This document shows positions 40,881-48,340 of a stretch of 57,794 bases of DNA, piece by piece. Each line of letters opens with the position of its first letter. Position 1 is the stretch's first letter. Source of the stretch: an uncultured Draconibacterium sp. (GTDB lineage: Bacteria > Bacteroidota > Bacteroidia > Bacteroidales > Prolixibacteraceae); assembly GCF_913060805.1 (NCBI RefSeq), contig NZ_CAJXTC010000033.1, forward strand, positions 1-57,794. Direction: 5' to 3'. A program made the translations under genes and the position numbers. Below the pieces are notes generated by a model. The model saw nothing but the letters and a program-made list of their open reading frames with translations, ran no database searches and was not told the DNA's origin.

Positions 40881-42281
40881 ATGTACAACGTACCTGCCGA
40901 TTTTATCAACGAAGCCAAAATTTGGGAAGCACTTGAGCAAAACAAAAATCCCGAACCGGCACAAATAAAAGAAGTACTGGCAAAAGCTGCTGAAATGAAG
41001 GGTTTGAACCTGAATGATGTGGCACTTCTTACCGCCATTAACAATCCGGAAATGATGGCCGAATTGTTTAACACGGCAAACACCGTAAAAGAAACAATTT
41101 ACGGGAAAAGACTGGTGTTGTTTGCGCCGCTATACGTTTCGAATTTGTGTAAAAACGAATGTTTGTATTGTGCATTCCGCGCAAGTAATAAAGGAATTGT
41201 ACGTCATGCTTTGTCACAGGAAGAGATTGCAAAAGAAGTTGAAATACTCATCAATCAAGGGCACAAAAGAGTTTTGCTGGTGGCCGGAGAATCTTATCCT
41301 GACAAAGATGGTTTTCAGTATGTGCTCGACTCCATAAAAACAGTGTACAGCGTTAAAAACGAACATGGCGAAATTCGACGTGTAAATATAAATGTTGCTC
41401 CGCTTACGGTTGAAGAATTTAAGCAGGCTAAAGAAGCGAATATCGGAACCTACCAGATTTTTCAGGAAACCTACCATCGCGAAACGTATAAAAAAGTACA
41501 TGTAGGCGGGAAAAAACGCGATTACAACTGGCGCACCTGGGCATTACACAGAGCCATGGAAGCTGGAATCGACGACGTGGGTATTGGCGTATTGCTTGGG
41601 TTGTTCGACTATCGTTTTGAATTGCTGGCCACAATGCAACATATTTTTGAGCTGGAAGATAAATTTGGCGTTGGACCGCACACAATTAGTGTTCCGCGAA
41701 TGGAACCTGCAACCAATAGCGACATGGCATCGCACCCGCCGTTCCCGGTTTCAGATATCGATTTCAGGAAAATGGTAGCTATTTTACGATTGGCAGTGCC
41801 GTACACCGGCATTATCATGTCGACCCGCGAAACAGCCAAAATGCGCCGCGATACTTTTGCGTTGGGCGTTAGCCAAATTTCGGCGGGAAGCAAAACGAAT
41901 CCGGGTGGTTATGGCGAAACTTCAGAAGATGATCCATCAAGCCAGTTTAGTTTGGGCGATCACCGTCCTTTGGATGAAGTGATTCGCGATGTGGCATCAA
42001 TGGGTTACATTCCGTCTTTCTGCACAGCTTGTTATCGTATGGGAAGAACCGGTCAGGATTTTATGGATCTTGCAAAACCCGGCGACATCCGCTTGCATTG
42101 TGCACCAAACGGACTCAGTTCGTTTAAAGAATATCTGCAAAACTATGCATCACCGGAAACCCGCGAAATTGGCGACGAGTTAATTCGCGAAACCATTGCA
42201 GGAATGAGCGGAATTGCAAAACAACGCGCCGAAAAACTGGTTAACCGGGTTAAAGCCGGACGCGATGATGTTTATTGTTAA
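40881..42281 (+). CDS. hydG: [FeFe]-hydrogenase maturase HydG (radical SAM)
   Basis: A 466-residue enzyme that cleaves tyrosine to provide the CO and CN ligands of the H-cluster. The radical-SAM motif is CKNECLYCAFRASNKG; the C-terminal cluster site is CTACYRMGRTGQDFMDLAKPG, with its third Cys distal (LHCAPNGLSSFKEYL). ISAGSKTNPGGYGE and EVNIVLLAGESYPD-type segments are also present (VLLVAGESYPD). Separates HydG from the related thiazole synthase ThiH. Between the TM1266 regulator and aspartate ammonia-lyase. Confidence 0.96.
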   Translation: MYNVPADFINEAKIWEALEQNKNPEPAQIKEVLAKAAEMKGLNLNDVALLTAINNPEMMAELFNTANTVKETIYGKRLVLFAPLYVSNLCKNECLYCAFRASNKGIVRHALSQEEIAKEVEILINQGHKRVLLVAGESYPDKDGFQYVLDSIKTVYSVKNEHGEIRRVNINVAPLTVEEFKQAKEANIGTYQIFQETYHRETYKKVHVGGKKRDYNWRTWALHRAMEAGIDDVGIGVLLGLFDYRFELLATMQHIFELEDKFGVGPHTISVPRMEPATNSDMASHPPFPVSDIDFRKMVAILRLAVPYTGIIMSTRETAKMRRDTFALGVSQISAGSKTNPGGYGETSEDDPSSQFSLGDHRPLDEVIRDVASMGYIPSFCTACYRMGRTGQDFMDLAKPGDIRLHCAPNGLSSFKEYLQNYASPETREIGDELIRETIAGMSGIAKQRAEKLVNRVKAGRDDVYC

Positions 42282-42352
42282 AACAGCGACGAGCAACGAG
42301 CGTTAAGCGACGAGCAACAACAAAATCATGTAATCCGATAATCAAGCAAATC

Positions 42353-43747
42353 ATGGTCAACACAAGAGAAGAAAGTGACTTTATTGGAAAGAAACAAATC
42401 CCTGCCGATGCGCTTTGGGGAATCCATACAGCTCGTGCGGTAGAGAATTTCCCTATCTCGGGGCAGCGGGTGCATCCGGAGTTGATTAAAGCTTACGGCG
42501 AAGTAAAACTGGCCTGTGCACAAACCAATAATACACTCTGCTTCTGGGAAGATAAAACAAAAACAGAGGCAATTGAAAAGGCAGCTTTTGAAATGAGTCA
42601 GGGTTTACTGAATGAGTACATTTTAGTAGATGCAATGCAGGGTGGAGCAGGAACTTCTACCAATATGAATGTGAACGAAGTGCTGGCCAATCGTGCACTT
42701 CAAATTCTTGGAAAAGAATTGGGCGATTACGCTGTTGTTTCTCCGCTTGATGACATCAACCTTCACCAAAGTACCAACGACACTTACCCCACTGCTCTTA
42801 AAGTTGCTGCTATTCGTCTGTTACGTCAGCTGGAACAAAATGTGCTGAACCTGCAGGAGGCTTTTCAGCAAAAAGAAAAGGAATTTGCACATATCGTTAA
42901 AATCGGGCGAACACAGTTACAGGATGCTGTTCTTACAACATTAGGGAGAGAAATGAGCGCTTATGCCGAAGCATTGAACCGCGACAGATGGCGCATTTAT
43001 AAATGCGAAGAACGATTGCGCGTGGTAAATCTGGGGGGCACGGCAATCGGGACCGGTTTGGGAGCGCCAAAACAATTTATTTTTCGGGTGGTTGACAAAC
43101 TCCGAGAAAACACTAACATTGGCTTGGCACGCAGCGAAAACCTGATTGACGGCACACAAAACGTCGATGTATTTGTTGAAGTTTCTGGTATACTAAAAGC
43201 ATGTGCTGTTAATTTACTTAAAATCAGTAACGACCTTCGGTTACTATCGAGCGGTCCCCATGCCGGATTTGGAGAAATAAACCTCCCGCAACTTCAAGCC
43301 GGCTCATCGATTATGCCGGGAAAAGTAAATCCGGTTATTCCGGAGGCTGTAGCACAGGCAGCCATAAAAGTTATGGGCAACGATCAGATTATAGCACAAG
43401 CCTGCAGTGCCGGGAATCTCGAGCTTAACCAGTTTATGCCGCTAATTGCGCACAGTTTTCTGGAGTCGATCGATTTGCTAAAAAATGCAAGTAAGTTATT
43501 CAATGAAAGATGTGTGTCGTGCATAACCGCTAACGAAGATGTGTGTAGAATGCACGTAAACAACTCAACCGCTACCATAACGGCACTGGTTCCTGCTATT
43601 GGTTACGAGCGCAGTTCGGAGATCATAAAATTGGTTGAAAATGATGGGCTTTCTATTAAGAAAGCAGCCTTAAAATCAGGGTATTTAACTGCCGATGAGT
43701 TCGATCAGTTGATTACACCGGAAGCAGTTTGCAGGTTGGGCAACTAA
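42353..43747 (+). CDS. aspA: Aspartate ammonia-lyase (hyd-cluster type)
   Basis: 464 residues from ATG 42353. The fumarase/aspartase family signature GSSIMPGKVNPV contains the catalytic serine loop at about residues 318-319; substrate-binding GGAGTSTNMNVNEV, HQSTNDTYPTA and GRTQLQDA are present. TNMNVNEV and STNDTYPT favour aspartase over fumarase. The reaction aspartate to fumarate plus ammonia would release ammonium, and lyases of this kind recur in hyd maturation clusters, possibly to feed the nitrogen of the dithiomethylamine bridge (inference). It is 71 bases after hydG; the gap contains the direct repeat agcgacgagcaac. Confidence 0.88.
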   Translation: MVNTREESDFIGKKQIPADALWGIHTARAVENFPISGQRVHPELIKAYGEVKLACAQTNNTLCFWEDKTKTEAIEKAAFEMSQGLLNEYILVDAMQGGAGTSTNMNVNEVLANRALQILGKELGDYAVVSPLDDINLHQSTNDTYPTALKVAAIRLLRQLEQNVLNLQEAFQQKEKEFAHIVKIGRTQLQDAVLTTLGREMSAYAEALNRDRWRIYKCEERLRVVNLGGTAIGTGLGAPKQFIFRVVDKLRENTNIGLARSENLIDGTQNVDVFVEVSGILKACAVNLLKISNDLRLLSSGPHAGFGEINLPQLQAGSSIMPGKVNPVIPEAVAQAAIKVMGNDQIIAQACSAGNLELNQFMPLIAHSFLESIDLLKNASKLFNERCVSCITANEDVCRMHVNNSTATITALVPAIGYERSSEIIKLVENDGLSIKKAALKSGYLTADEFDQLITPEAVCRLGN

Positions 43748-43750
43748 CTC

Positions 43751-43775
43751 TTAACATTTTTAACAACACATTAAC
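43751..43775 (+). promoter_or_regulatory. TTAAC triple direct repeat, copy 1 (candidate response-regulator site)
   Basis: TTAAC begins at 43751, 43760 and 43771 (offsets 0, 9, 20). The same offsets occur at 46381/46390/46401 before the second Cys-rich gene. Located about 160 bases before ATG 43936. Confidence 0.6.
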
Positions 43776-43935
43776 ACGCACACAACTGACTGTTTTTCTG
43801 TCAATTACAAATCACCAATCAATAAAAGACTGATTTATCTCATTCTCTGCTTGCTTTTAATCATATTAGTTATTAATATTGAGTCTAAATAAAGATAGAA
43901 ACAAAAAATTTCTTTAATAACTAAAATTGTAAATC

Positions 43936-44241
43936 ATGAAAAAAGTATTATTTCTATTAGCGTTTGTTGCAGTTTACGGAGTATCATTAGCAATGACTGA
44001 AGCAACAGTTGTTACCAACGATGAGATCGTTCAGATTGTAGACAACGCAGATAAAGTAGAGAAAGAAAAAGAAGCGAGCAAGAAAGCCACAAAGTCTGAA
44101 GCTAAAGCTGACGGATGTTCAGGAACTGATGCAAAAGCTAAATCAGCAGCAAAAGCTGACGGATGCTCAGGTGAGAAATCAGCAGAAAAGAAAAGTGACT
44201 GCAGCAAAACTTGTGGTGGCGAAAAATCAGGTAAGTCATAA
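43936..44241 (+). CDS. Exported Lys/Cys-rich small protein, paralogue 1
   Basis: A 101-residue protein with signal peptide (about 19 residues, cleavage near VSLA). The mature part is Lys- and Ala-rich, low-complexity, with four cysteines: DGCSG twice, DCSK and TCGGEK. Its paralogue at 46467-46781 has the same organisation and the same TCG-[G/D]-EK end. Cysteine-rich exported proteins of this size may bind metal or act as thiol buffers; no known family was recognised. It lies between aspA and a two-component system in the hyd locus. A bidirectional terminator separates it from the converging regulator gene. Confidence 0.75.
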   Translation: MKKVLFLLAFVAVYGVSLAMTEATVVTNDEIVQIVDNADKVEKEKEASKKATKSEAKADGCSGTDAKAKSAAKADGCSGEKSAEKKSDCSKTCGGEKSGKS

Positions 44242-44261
44242 TTGATTACCACTCATAAAGG

Positions 44262-44296
44262 AAAGTCGTTCATTAACAAATGAGCGACTTTTTTTA
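44262..44296. terminator. Bidirectional terminator
   Basis: A 12-bp stem aaagtcgttcat (44262-44273) with atgagcgacttt (44280-44291, one G-T), T-rich on the plus side. It ends the small Cys-rich gene and overlaps the tail of the response regulator gene (stop near 44298). Confidence 0.85.
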
Positions 44297-44297
44297 T

Positions 44298-44990
44298 TTA
44301 GCAATGCAAAATGTAACCCACTTTCACCACATTTACGATTGAAATCGAAGGGTCCCCGGAGAAATACTTTCTTAGTTTCGAAATGAATACATCAAGGCTT
44401 CGTCCGGCAAAATAGTCGTTCTCGCCCCAAATGGCAGTCAATATCTGCTCGCGCCGAACCACATTCTTCTTTTCCTTACAAAGCATAAGCAACACTTCCG
44501 CCTCGCGCGTTGTAAGTCGCTTTATATTTCCATCCAAACTAAGCGAAAGATTTTCATAATCGAATTCGTACGCGCCAACCTGGTAAACCGTTTCAGTTTC
44601 CTCCTGGATAAAATCGCTGCGTTTACTGATCGCCACAATTTTACACCACAACTCATCCTCATCAAAAGGTTTGGTAATGTAATCATCGGCGCCAATATCA
44701 TAACCTTTCATTTTATCCTCTTTCATAGCGCGTGCCGTCAGGAAAACCACGGGAATTTCGGGCTCAATAGCTTTCACCTTTTTGGCCAGCGAAAAGCCAT
44801 CCATTTTGGGGAGCATTACATCGAAAATGCAAAAGTTGAAATCTCCTTTCTTTTTGAATCCTTCCAAGCCCTCTTCTCCGTCGCGATAAAGCGTAACTCC
44901 TACCCCACGGCTTTTCAAAAAATCCTCCAACAAAAATCCAAGGTTAAGGTCGTCCTCAACTAAAATAATGTTTAAGTTTTTTTCGTCCAT
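44298..44990 (-). CDS. Response regulator, OmpR family
   Basis: A 230-residue regulator. Receiver domain to about residue 120: acidic pocket EDD at 12-14, phospho-acceptor Asp57 in FDVMLPKMDG, conserved Thr/Lys in FLTARAMKEDK and YITKPFDEDEL. The C-terminal winged helix (FDYENLSLSLDGNIKRLTTREAEVLLML... REQILTAIWGENDYFAGRSLDVFISKLRKYF) is OmpR/PhoB-type, which binds direct repeats. The kinase gene lies immediately upstream, separated by two bases, so they are one operon. The pair resembles RprX/RprY of Bacteroides (by eye only). Likely binds the TTAAC repeats at 43751 and 46381. Confidence 0.9.
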   Translation of the reverse strand: MDEKNLNIILVEDDLNLGFLLEDFLKSRGVGVTLYRDGEEGLEGFKKKGDFNFCIFDVMLPKMDGFSLAKKVKAIEPEIPVVFLTARAMKEDKMKGYDIGADDYITKPFDEDELWCKIVAISKRSDFIQEETETVYQVGAYEFDYENLSLSLDGNIKRLTTREAEVLLMLCKEKKNVVRREQILTAIWGENDYFAGRSLDVFISKLRKYFSGDPSISIVNVVKVGYILHC

Positions 44991-44992
44991 CT

Positions 44993-46258
44993 TTACGATT
45001 TTTCTAGTGGCAGTTGAATCCTAAAAACAGTCCCTTCATCGCTTGTGCTTTCAACAGCAATGGTTCCGTTATGTGCTTCTACGATTTGTTTTACGTAGGC
45101 CAGCCCAATTCCAAAACCTTTGGCGTTGTGCACATCGCCCGTTGGTACCCTGTAATATTTATCAAAAATATACTTTTGAAATTTAACAGGAATACCAATT
45201 CCGTTATCTTTTACCCAAATTACCAGATTATTGTTTTCAACACGGGTAGATATATCGATGTTAGGATTGCGTTTGGAGTATTTTATCGCATTCGAAAGCA
45301 AGTTAACGAATACGTTTACAAAATGCAGGCGATCGATAAAAACCGGGGTTTTACCGGCTTCAAAATCATAGGTAATTCGCCCGTATCTTTCGTTTAGCAA
45401 CATTTCGCAGGTTGATGCGGCTTCTTTTACCACATCCTCTACCAAAGTTTCTTCTTTGTTATAATCAAATTCGTTTCTTTCCACTGCTTCCAGTCGCAAT
45501 AAACTTTCAACCAGGTTTTGCAGTTTGCGGTTCTCTTTGTTTATCAGCTCGGCATAACTGGTTAATTTTTGCTCATCTTCGCCATACCGCTTTTTACGAA
45601 TCATATTCGATGCCAGAGCAATCGACGACAATGGTGTTTTAAACTCGTGGCTCACGTTATTCAGCAACTCTTTGGTATGTTTGGCAATGCGAATCTCGCG
45701 GTTGTAAATGCGTAACAAGTAGAGCAACGACAGAATGAGCAGCAAAATAAGAACTACCGAGCCCACAAACATGTAACCGGCTGTAGCAAAGAAAAAGCGG
45801 GTTCGCGACGGAAATTCCACCACCAACTGATACCCTGTTTGTCCCATTATGCCGCCCATACAACGCGAGTAGTACAGCCCCTTATCGTAGTCGGCTTTTA
45901 GCACGTCCAACTCTTCCGAATCATTTTCGAGGATGTACATTTCAAACTCCAGATCGATGTCGTATGATGTTAATTCATTCTGAATGGCATCGTGAATTTT
46001 TTGCCAAACACCGGATGATGTTAGTTGTGTTTTCAGGCGAACAGAATCGCACTCAACACAAGCTTTAACTTTGTTACACAATGGCTTATCGGCCGTAAGT
46101 GTTGTCATGGTTTCGCTAAGTGCCAGTTCCACACTTTTCTCAAAAACCTTGTCCTGAAAGCGAATGGAATAAACAATCCATTTTATTTGCGTTGCCAGCA
46201 GTGCCAGAATAATCAGTAATGCCAACAAAAATGTATATTTTCTGAATACTGTTTTCAC
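44993..46258 (-). CDS. Sensor histidine kinase with periplasmic Cys-rich domain
   Basis: A 421-residue kinase. Helix 1 about residues 9-30, periplasmic domain about 31-157, helix 2 about 158-182, then phospho-acceptor His204 in NNVSHEFKTPLSS, N box LLSNAIKYSK, G1 VWVKDNGIGIP, and GFGIGLAYVKQIVEAHNG. The periplasmic part has cysteines 61, 67 and 70 (C-x5-C-x2-C) and Cys133, uncommon for a soluble sensor domain and suited to metal, thiol or disulfide sensing (inference). The next genes on both sides are exported Cys-rich proteins, the likely target or ligand of the circuit. No PAS or HAMP domain. Confidence 0.9.
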   Translation of the reverse strand: MKTVFRKYTFLLALLIILALLATQIKWIVYSIRFQDKVFEKSVELALSETMTTLTADKPLCNKVKACVECDSVRLKTQLTSSGVWQKIHDAIQNELTSYDIDLEFEMYILENDSEELDVLKADYDKGLYYSRCMGGIMGQTGYQLVVEFPSRTRFFFATAGYMFVGSVVLILLLILSLLYLLRIYNREIRIAKHTKELLNNVSHEFKTPLSSIALASNMIRKKRYGEDEQKLTSYAELINKENRKLQNLVESLLRLEAVERNEFDYNKEETLVEDVVKEAASTCEMLLNERYGRITYDFEAGKTPVFIDRLHFVNVFVNLLSNAIKYSKRNPNIDISTRVENNNLVIWVKDNGIGIPVKFQKYIFDKYYRVPTGDVHNAKGFGIGLAYVKQIVEAHNGTIAVESTSDEGTVFRIQLPLEKS

Positions 46259-46380
46259 GTATAATTTTTCCTGTTTCTAAACTATTCAATGTTTATTACC
46301 ATAACCACATTGATAACCAATTGTTTTATGGTGATTATAAAAGTCAAAAATAACCATTAAATCAACAAGCACTCCGGCTG

Positions 46381-46405
46381 TTAAAACCATTAACCTCGCA
46401 TTAAC
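46381..46405. promoter_or_regulatory. TTAAC triple direct repeat, copy 2, in a divergent promoter region
   Basis: TTAAA/TTAAC/TTAAC start at 46381, 46390 and 46401. The last repeat lies 22 bases before the -7 element TATATTTG (46428-46435), occupying the -33 region, the place for an activator. The 208-base gap is shared with the divergent kinase gene, so it may autoregulate the operon. Confidence 0.65.
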
Positions 46406-46466
46406 GCTTAGTTTAATCAGTAAACAATATATTTGTCACAACGATCACAAAAAAAACTAAAAAATC

Positions 46467-46781
46467 ATGAAAAGAATTCTCATTGTAATCACTCTTATTG
46501 CTGCTTACAGTGTTGCTATGGCAAGCACAAGTGCAAAGGTTAACACAGTTAAAAAATCGGAAGTTACTGTAGTTGCCGACGATAACACTGTTGTAATCAA
46601 CAAAGAAGAGGACGAAAAGAAGAAGAAAACAGAAAAGAAAGCCACAACCGCAAAAACAGCCGACAAAAAGGCAACAGGTTGTTCCGAAGCACAAAAGAAA
46701 AGTTGTGCAGCATCGGGCAAAACCTGTGGTGACGAAAAAGCCGCTACTGAGAAAAAAAGTTGTTGTGGAGGATCGAAGTAA
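46467..46781 (+). CDS. Exported Lys/Cys-rich small protein, paralogue 2
   Basis: A 104-residue protein: signal peptide to about AMA (residue 19), then a Lys/Glu/Ala-rich region (EEDEKKKKTEKKATTAK) and five cysteines near the end (TGCSE, SCAAS, TCGDEK, SCCGG). It shares with the protein at 43936-44241 the overall layout, Lys richness and TCG-[G/D]-EK motif. Promoter TATATTTG and the TTAAC repeats precede it. A terminator follows at 46805-46830. It sits between the kinase gene and hydF. Likely function: periplasmic metal or thiol handling under control of the neighbouring two-component system (inference). Confidence 0.75.
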   Translation: MKRILIVITLIAAYSVAMASTSAKVNTVKKSEVTVVADDNTVVINKEEDEKKKKTEKKATTAKTADKKATGCSEAQKKSCAASGKTCGDEKAATEKKSCCGGSK

Positions 46782-46804: not shown

Positions 46805-46830
46805 AAAGGGTGCTTTTGCACCCTTTTTTT
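46805..46830 (+). terminator. Intrinsic terminator
   Basis: Stem aaagggtgc (46805-46813) with gcaccctttt (46818-46827), loop tttt, then seven or more T. Confidence 0.9.
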
Positions 46831-47110: not shown

Positions 47111-48340
47111 ATGAGAGCACCAAAATCATTTCGTTTACACATTGGGATTTTTGGCCGCAGAAATGCCGGCAAGTCAAGTATTTTAAATGCACTTACACAG
47201 CAAGATGTATCCATTGTTTCGGATGTTGCCGGAACAACAACCGACCCGGTTGAGAAACCGATGGAATTGCTTCCGCTTGGGCCGGTACTATTTATTGACA
47301 CGGCTGGTATCGACGATGTTGGGGCGCTTGGCGAAAAACGCATTGCCAAAACACTTGCCGTTTTCGATCGAACCGACTTAGGTGTAATTGTGTCGAATTT
47401 TAACGATTGGGGAGAATACGAAGAGTCATTGATCGGCGAATTCAACGAACGGGAAATTCCGTTTGTAGTGGTGTTTAACAAGTGCGATCTGTACGATGAA
47501 AATTTTGAAATTATCGGTGCCCTCGATGGTAAAAAGATAAAACTGGTTCAGACTTCGGTAACTGAAAACAAAGGATTGCTCGATCTGAGACAGTTATTGT
47601 TGAATTCTGCACCGGCCGATTTTATTAATCGACCAAGTATTTTGGGCGACCTCGTTGGCGCCGGAGAAGCTGCAGTGTTGGTGGTCCCCATCGATAAAGA
47701 AGCGCCAAAAGGCCGGCTGATATTACCGCAGGTTCAAAGTATCCGCGACTTGCTCGACAACGACGCCTTTTGTATGGTCGTTAAGGAACGTGAATTGCGC
47801 GAGGGACTTTCGCGGTTTAACAAGCCACCGAAACTTGTGGTTACCGATTCGCAGGCCTTTTTAAAAGTGGCTGCCGACACACCACCAGAAATTCCGTTAA
47901 CCTCGTTTTCCATTTTATTTGCGCGTCACCAGGGCGATCTTAACGAAATGGTTCGCGGAGCAATGGCCATCGACAAACTAAAAACCGGCGACAAAGTTTT
48001 GATTGCAGAAGCCTGCTCGCACCATCCCATTGGTGAAGATATTGGCACCGTAAAAATTCCACGCTGGCTTACCCAGTATGTGGGCGGCAAACTACAAATT
48101 GACAGTACCCGCGGACACGATTTCCCGCCTAATATTTCCGATTATAAACTCATCATTCATTGCGGAGCCTGTATGTGGAACCGCCGCGAAATGTTGAGCC
48201 GCATTATGAAAGCAAAACAAATTGGCGTTCCGATTACCAATTACGGACTTACCATTGCTTACTCGCTGGGAATTTTTGAGCGTGCATTGGAACCGTTTCC
48301 GGCAGCACTGGACATTTATAAAAACGGAACCGGGAATTAG
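47111..48340 (+). CDS. hydF: [FeFe]-hydrogenase maturation GTPase HydF
   Basis: 409 residues from ATG 47111 (MRAPKSFRLHIGIFGRRNAGKSS); the frame is open further upstream through the 21-bp repeats. GTPase domain: P-loop GRRNAGKSS, switch GTTTDPVEK, DTAG, NKCD. The C-terminal domain has the 4Fe-4S ligands EACSHHP and HCGACMWNRREM, as required of HydF (CxH...HCxxC). HydF is the scaffold that carries the assembled 2Fe unit to the hydrogenase. It is separated from hydE/G by the two-component/Cys-rich insert. Confidence 0.96.
   Translation: MRAPKSFRLHIGIFGRRNAGKSSILNALTQQDVSIVSDVAGTTTDPVEKPMELLPLGPVLFIDTAGIDDVGALGEKRIAKTLAVFDRTDLGVIVSNFNDWGEYEESLIGEFNEREIPFVVVFNKCDLYDENFEIIGALDGKKIKLVQTSVTENKGLLDLRQLLLNSAPADFINRPSILGDLVGAGEAAVLVVPIDKEAPKGRLILPQVQSIRDLLDNDAFCMVVKERELREGLSRFNKPPKLVVTDSQAFLKVAADTPPEIPLTSFSILFARHQGDLNEMVRGAMAIDKLKTGDKVLIAEACSHHPIGEDIGTVKIPRWLTQYVGGKLQIDSTRGHDFPPNISDYKLIIHCGACMWNRREMLSRIMKAKQIGVPITNYGLTIAYSLGIFERALEPFPAALDIYKNGTGN

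Follow-up and report, generated by a model that had tools for sequence, protein, structure and literature searches.

The window analyzed here, i.e., the whole 57,794-nucleotide stretch of contig NZ_CAJXTC010000033.1 from an uncultured Draconibacterium sp. of the Bacteroidota, contains a two-component system (TCS-A) flanked by two small genes, sm1 and sm2, both of which are preceded by TTAAC repeats. TCS-A consists of the sensor histidine kinase HK-A and the response regulator RR-A, and the gene order is an aspA-like reading frame, sm1, the regulator–kinase operon on the opposite strand, sm2, and hydF. The genes and orientations given in the initial annotation of this DNA were borne out by the reading frames and a Pfam scan. 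The genes and the elements upstream of them are as follows:

43936–44241, forward strand: sm1, a 101-aa Lys/Ala/Glu-rich protein with four Cys, judged to be exported from its N-terminus, without a Pfam family over cut-off.
44298–44990, reverse strand: RR-A, an OmpR/PhoB-type, RprY-like response regulator with PF00072 and PF00486 over cut-off.
44993–46258, reverse strand: HK-A, a sensor histidine kinase (HisKA/HATPase) with one periplasmic domain that carries C-X5-C-X2-C.
46467–46781, forward strand: sm2, a 104-aa Lys/Cys-rich protein, predicted to be exported, with five Cys.
43751–43775, forward strand: TTAAC repeats 5' of sm1, in which the conserved core is the 11-bp pair at 43760–43775 (TTAACAACACATTAAC).
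43874–43881, forward strand: TAATATTG, a putative −7-like promoter element of sm1; from the first base of the last TTAAC to this element, the distance is 103 nt.
46381–46405, forward strand: TTAAC repeats 5' of sm2 in the divergent gap between kinase and sm2, with the core at 46390–46405 (TTAACCTCGCATTAAC) and TTAAA as the first repeat.
46428–46435, forward strand: TATATTTG, the putative −7 box of sm2, at a distance of 27 nt from the first base of the last TTAAC; the match of this genome to the composite promoter described below spans 46390–46435.

A TTAAC triplet with offsets 0/9/20 had initially been described as an identical operator, present before both small genes and noticed nowhere else at this spacing. 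At 43751, all three repeats match exactly, whereas at 46381 only the last two do and the first reads TTAAA, thus the two triplets differ and the word identical has to be withdrawn. The statement on uniqueness holds for the exact triplet, which has a single site in the window and in the genome, but not for the pair, which was found before other genes of the genome as well. With at most one mismatch, the triplet has five sites genome-wide, including those of sm1 and sm2, versus eight for the reversed control; hence, the triplet itself is no genome-wide signal. In the window alone, a loose triplet (at most three mismatches) occurs 10 times versus 4.5 expected, a count that 2 of 100 shuffles reach and that is weak alone. 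Comparison of sequences indicates that the actual element is the 11-bp pair TTAAC-N6-TTAAC, i.e., the last two repeats of the triplet. The pair stands above chance because it is conserved across as many as 18 loci whose flanks vary, its register is fixed, and the order-wide search given below shows an excess over a matched control.

Conservation was followed in 36 other genomes of the same genus (37 counting the present one). A kinase orthologue (at least 59% identity) occurs in 17 of the 36, and an eighteenth genome, G028, has the regulator at a contig edge; TCS-A is present in 19 of the 37. HK-A orthologues at 92% identity occur in D. mangrovi, D. orientale, and D. sediminis. All 17 kinase-orthologue loci retain the gene order over the length that their contigs cover; one contig starts after sm1. 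TTAAC-N6-TTAAC precedes sm1 in all 17 TCS-A-bearing loci and sm2 in all 18. The first (0/9) repeat at sm1 is TTAAC in 8 of 16 TCS-A-bearing loci, including one locus with an extra repeat (L045), and in none of the seven TCS-A-less loci having the pair. Conservation of the repeats across orthologous loci, which the initial annotation had itself put forward as a test, is therefore found for the 11-bp pair and not for the whole triplet.

The register of the pair relative to the putative promoters is equally regular. The main sigma factor of Bacteroidota is reported to have the consensus TAnnTTTG with TTTG near −33 (PMC7366714). Before sm2, the last TTAAC starts 27 nt upstream of TAnnTTTG in 18/18 loci, so that a primary-sigma −7 box stands in a fixed place after the operator and the last repeat lies at the −33 position, as originally noticed. 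Before sm1, the distance to TAATATTG is 103 nt in 15/16 TCS-A-bearing loci, with variable intervening DNA, and the sixteenth (L045) has one extra repeat, 92 nt from the element; in TCS-A-less loci with the pair, it is 101–102 nt in six of seven, and the −7-like element was not found in the seventh. Separately, a strongly conserved stretch 5' of sm1 (43868–43900, TTATTAATATTGAGTCTAAATAAA) reaches further than the −7-like element and may contain another regulator site, for which a Fur-like half palindrome was considered.

The pair is not confined to this locus. Across the 37 genomes of the genus, the pattern TTAACANNNCRTTAACA is matched 95 times, versus 20 times for its reversed control. A second two-component system, TCS-B, whose kinase HK-B is 28% identical to HK-A, carries the box in a divergent gap facing an exported neighbor, which we take to be DUF1573-like, and a third system of the same genome, TCS-C, has two pairs and a composite promoter before an acidic exported protein. 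An operator private to TCS-A, as the initial annotation implied, is thus rejected, since paralogous systems with a nearly identical recognition helix carry the same box and the sm1 box persists in genomes that lack TCS-A.

RR-A contains PF00072 (1.1e-24) and PF00486 (4.6e-16), which places it in the OmpR/PhoB type, and its best NCBIfam response-regulator model is NF051850, RprY, at 253 bits, followed by the next model at 147. The same RprY model gives 237 bits for RR-B, 279 for RR-C, and 390.8 for the genome's own RprY, a separate gene (C56). The recognition helix YFx(G/A)RS(L/M)DV(F/Y)I(S/T)(K/R)LRK is common to all four regulators; the helix of RR-C was taken from its translation, and the frameshift-split regulator of G027 was left out of the alignment (in that locus, L051, the gene is split over two frames, which may be an assembly error). 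Nearly the same helices are the simplest reason for the shared box, and they lead one to predict cross-talk. Of characterized systems, RprX/RprY of Bacteroides fragilis, with RprY also in Porphyromonas gingivalis, is among the closest, as RprY is the nearest model for both RR-A and RR-B and the RR-A recognition helix is close to that of the genome's RprY. RprY binds its own promoter (PMC3646045) and is described as a probable repressor, whereas the sm2 site stands in an activator position; the literature searched, seen in part, yielded no RprY consensus site. HaeSR of P. gingivalis is likewise a kinase–regulator pair from the same phylum, the regulator of which binds its own promoter (PMC3764172), but its signal is heme.

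The pho box, composed of 11-bp direct repeats that overlap the upstream promoter element and are bound by PhoB, offers a further parallel, given that RR-A belongs to the OmpR/PhoB family and the sm2 box likewise comprises 11-bp direct repeats at the upstream promoter element. However, the Bacteroides PhoB model gives 147 bits for RR-A, and C20, the PhoB-like regulator that is linked to pst in this genome, differs in its recognition helix. A pho box was weighed since some boxes in other genomes precede phosphate transporters, as judged by eye, and was dropped, because no TTAAC pair occurs in the 5 kb at the C20 pst/phoB stretch.

Genomes without TCS-A separate the two sites. We examined 13 hydF loci of such genomes, excluding L091 of G028 as TCS-A-bearing once its regulator was found; a further 5 of the 18 TCS-A-less genomes (G001, G011, G014, G015, and G018) have no full hydF orthologue and fall outside the 13. 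As some of these genomes are incomplete (70–94%), TCS-A may have been missed in them. A tandem sm pair lies between aspA and hydF in nine of the 13 loci, one sm gene in one, and none in three. The TTAAC pair before sm1 is retained in 7/9 loci without TCS-A, whereas the sm2 pair is found in 0/10, versus 18/18 with TCS-A; hence, the sm1 box is independent of TCS-A and the sm2 box tracks it. In TCS-A-less genomes, either another regulator reads the sm1 box or the box predates TCS-A. On a hydF/hydG/aspA tree with 10 of 29 inner branches open, the distribution of TCS-A requires two changes, which may be gains or losses.

These data bear on the reading in which the boxes serve mainly another RprY-like regulator (RR-B, RR-C, or RprY), TCS-A having been inserted locally, with targets of its own that differ in part. 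The persistence of the sm1 box, the near-identity of the recognition helices, and the occurrence of the TCS-B box beside HK-B in TCS-A-less genomes too would all follow from it. The restriction of the sm2 box to TCS-A-bearing loci within the genus argues the other way, as does the strict spacer form TTAACNNCRCRTTAAC (the CRCR form), which has 49 matches in the 19 TCS-A-bearing genomes, G003 having none, but no match in the 18 genomes of the genus that lack TCS-A, its reversed control giving 10 and 7, respectively. We regard this reading as rather unlikely.

The composite promoter TTAAC-N6-TTAAC-N21-23-TAnnTTTG was searched in 393 genomes of the order and has 239 matches in 150 of them; the reversed control yields 26 (in 23 genomes), and a matched control with CAATT half-sites and the same −7 box yields 28 (in 24 genomes). 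This excess, along with a pair that is invariant and fixed in spacing across divergent loci, argues against the view that the repeat is a plain promoter or AT-rich feature that no regulator reads; such a feature would fit the lack of genome-wide excess of the near-exact triplet, and we consider it highly improbable.

Thirty composite loci were examined, which are those retained by the search and not a random draw; no product was obtained for L222 and L225, those of L211 and L237 are unlikely, and that of L226 is masked. Gene names at these and all other compared loci (orthologue, hydF, box-bearing, and small-protein loci) derive from BLAST to the genes of the window or were given by eye. A divergent frame is present in 21 of the 30, and 17 of these frames match HK-A or HK-B (E < 1e-8), although the match runs through the kinase core and is thus no proof of the same subfamily. 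Ten of 28 products have at most 145 aa and at least four Cys, two of the ten being 52-aa FeoB-associated-like peptides; the others include, by eye, phosphate-transporter-like proteins and acidic or coiled exported proteins. Two other kinds of box-bearing locus adjoin regulators that look LytTR-like by eye, and in L154, L166, and L118, an exported 198-aa protein lies beside such a regulator with a TTAAC pair upstream. A gene for an exported Cys/His-rich protein and one resembling a TonB receptor lie downstream of the composite promoter in L241 and of a TTAAC pair in L157; an HMA-like protein follows in L157, suggesting a metal operon.

The small proteins themselves are related, as a profile of sm2 finds sm1 at E 1.3e-9. 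Neither has a Pfam family over cut-off, and the weak hits below it look like chance. A protein search with sm1 retrieved 62 proteins at E ≤ 0.001, none with a Pfam domain, and those shown by name are hypothetical or low-complexity proteins of Draconibacterium and Mariniphaga; an RcnB label, from a single source, is supported by nothing in the analysis and was set aside. The sm2 profile matches 19 of the 393 genomes of the order, or 17 without the present genome and L190, which was dropped as a false match that is not Cys-rich. Among the 17, the pair lies shortly upstream of the small gene in 14, and the three without it all belong to one family. A kinase is divergent from the small gene in seven loci outside the genus (L173, L175, L177, L179, L186, L188, and L189), while the small genes of L176 and L184 come, by eye, after cdsA-like and psd-like genes and that of L187 after a psd-like gene. 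Across the phylum, the small-protein profile, which is short and of low complexity, matches 2/395 genomes including the present one; thus, its reach outside the order is unproven.

In Escherichia coli, ZraSR–ZraP and CpxAR–CpxP each comprise a kinase–regulator operon that faces the gene of a small periplasmic protein across a shared regulatory gap. TCS-A and sm2 are laid out alike, and by analogy, feedback of the small protein on the system may be envisaged. The resemblance does not extend to sequence, since the Pfam scan of sm1 and sm2 gave no ZraP/CpxP family member, even among the weak hits.

The position of the locus had suggested to the initial annotation that the circuit may monitor the periplasm for hydrogenase maturation. 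The neighbors in question are:

42275–43747, forward strand: aspA-like reading frame, 639 bits to NF008909 (aspartate ammonia-lyase; cut-off 510) and under the TIGR00839 aspA cut-off.
47111–48340, forward strand: hydF, 562 bits to TIGR03918 (cut-off 325.55), with ATG 47111 chosen as the start by reading.

Together with hydF, hydE, hydG, and a TM1266-type regulator lie at the locus, all over their own NCBIfam cut-offs. The sm genes lie between aspA and hydF in every TCS-A-bearing locus whose contig spans that stretch, and the sm pair keeps this place in most TCS-A-less hydF loci, as counted above. The linkage, common in the genus, is nevertheless not constant. G001 has the sm pair beside sulP, without hyd genes in the 6 kb read and with no closer HydF elsewhere in the genome than one at 44% identity; L175 has TCS-A and sm2 with no hydF in the 1.4 kb available after sm2; and three of the 13 hydF loci lack sm genes. 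Furthermore, small-protein relatives in other families adjoin other kinases or lipid-synthesis-like genes, and the hyd maturases reside in the cytoplasm. Participation in hydrogenase biogenesis is thus not supported and appears improbable: this copy of TCS-A is housed in the hydrogenase locus without evidently serving it. Since the TTAAC pair recurs ahead of comparable genes in relatives, the arrangement appears to be an envelope-sensing circuit of a general kind, the location of which in a hydrogenase locus is incidental.

What HK-A senses may be sought in its periplasmic domain. C-X5-C-X2-C occurs in 104 of the best 120 of 899 HK-A homologues and also in the relatives L173 and L175, with two of the three Cys in Mariniphaga L202. 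The triad hints at thiol or metal sensing, in line with the periplasmic redox or metal state that the initial annotation had proposed as a possible signal.

The best explanation, to which we assign a probability of about 0.62, is an RprY-like two-component circuit that acts on small exported Cys/Lys-rich proteins through TTAAC pairs. HK-A would sense a periplasmic signal through the domain with the conserved Cys triad, and phosphorylated RR-A would bind the TTAAC half-sites 11 bp apart. At sm2, the downstream half-site would replace the −33 element, 27 nt before TAnnTTTG, and since it stands in that place, RR-A most likely activates sm2; from the gap between kinase and sm2, it may also control its own kinase–regulator operon. 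At sm1, the pair would act from a fixed upstream position of 103 nt. The two products, which are probably disordered, may serve as a buffer for metal ions or thiols or exert feedback on the sensor. This operator is a family trait, in that paralogous RprY-like systems carry the box and each faces its own exported protein, and as they share both helix and box, cross-regulation is to be expected. The earlier proposal that the regulator controls both small genes, and perhaps itself, thus gains from the comparison, through the 11-bp repeats before both genes, the −33 activator position at sm2, and the box in the kinase/sm2 gap; its exclusivity is lost. The sequences establish the layout of the genes, the conservation and register of the pair, and its recurrence in the order, whereas binding, activation, the signal, and the function of the products are inferred.

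Several observations weigh against this circuit as formulated. The 253 bits of RR-A fall short of the curated NF051850 cut-off of 370, so that RR-A is not a member of RprY by that model. The sm1 pair survives the absence of TCS-A, as described, and 31 of the 49 TTAACNNCRCRTTAAC matches are sites of the hyd locus, so that the excess elsewhere, 18 versus 10 in the control, is weak. The box also precedes phosphate transporters and other genes and is in this sense unspecific. Its register is not universal, being 48 nt in 5/5 cases for TCS-B; in the 14 box-bearing small-protein loci beyond the main set, it is 26–28 nt in seven, 37–38 nt in three, and 49 nt in one, and no TAnnTTTG follows the box in the remaining three, including L191, the second copy of G019. 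Additionally, other aligned divergent kinases do not show the Cys triad, thus redox or metal sensing is no family trait, and a model of the sensor domain (predicted local distance difference test, pLDDT, 68.5) found no significant structural match in the PDB (best E 0.36).

A wider and more tentative proposal, which we hold as possible yet somewhat unlikely, is that the order harbors an expandable family of RprY-like envelope circuits. Each copy would have its own periplasmic sensor, a near-invariant DNA-reading helix, and one composite promoter (TTAAC-N6-TTAAC-N22-TAnnTTTG) driving a small exported protein that evolves rapidly, in many cases a Cys/Lys-rich sponge for thiols or metals with feedback on the kinase of that copy, and sm1 would have been captured by TCS-A from an older regulator. 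Since the half-sites would be common to all copies, it would fall to the 6-base spacer to keep them insulated; its fourth base is A or G in 15/17 sm1 sites of TCS-A-bearing loci, whereas all 12 of the distinct TCS-B sites checked have T.

To our knowledge, few operators of Bacteroidota response regulators have been described, and the literature searched contained no paper on this operator or on the small-protein family. A defined half-site, spacing, and promoter register would make regulons readable from genomes and would name an uncharacterized class of small Cys-rich exported proteins as targets, while paralogous regulators that share one operator would constitute a natural case for study. 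As regards the ends of the transcription units at the locus, a hairpin with a T-run that resembles a terminator by eye lies at 44256–44300 between the convergent sm1 and regulator genes, and a second one, similar to an intrinsic terminator by eye, lies at 46805–46830, 3' of sm2.

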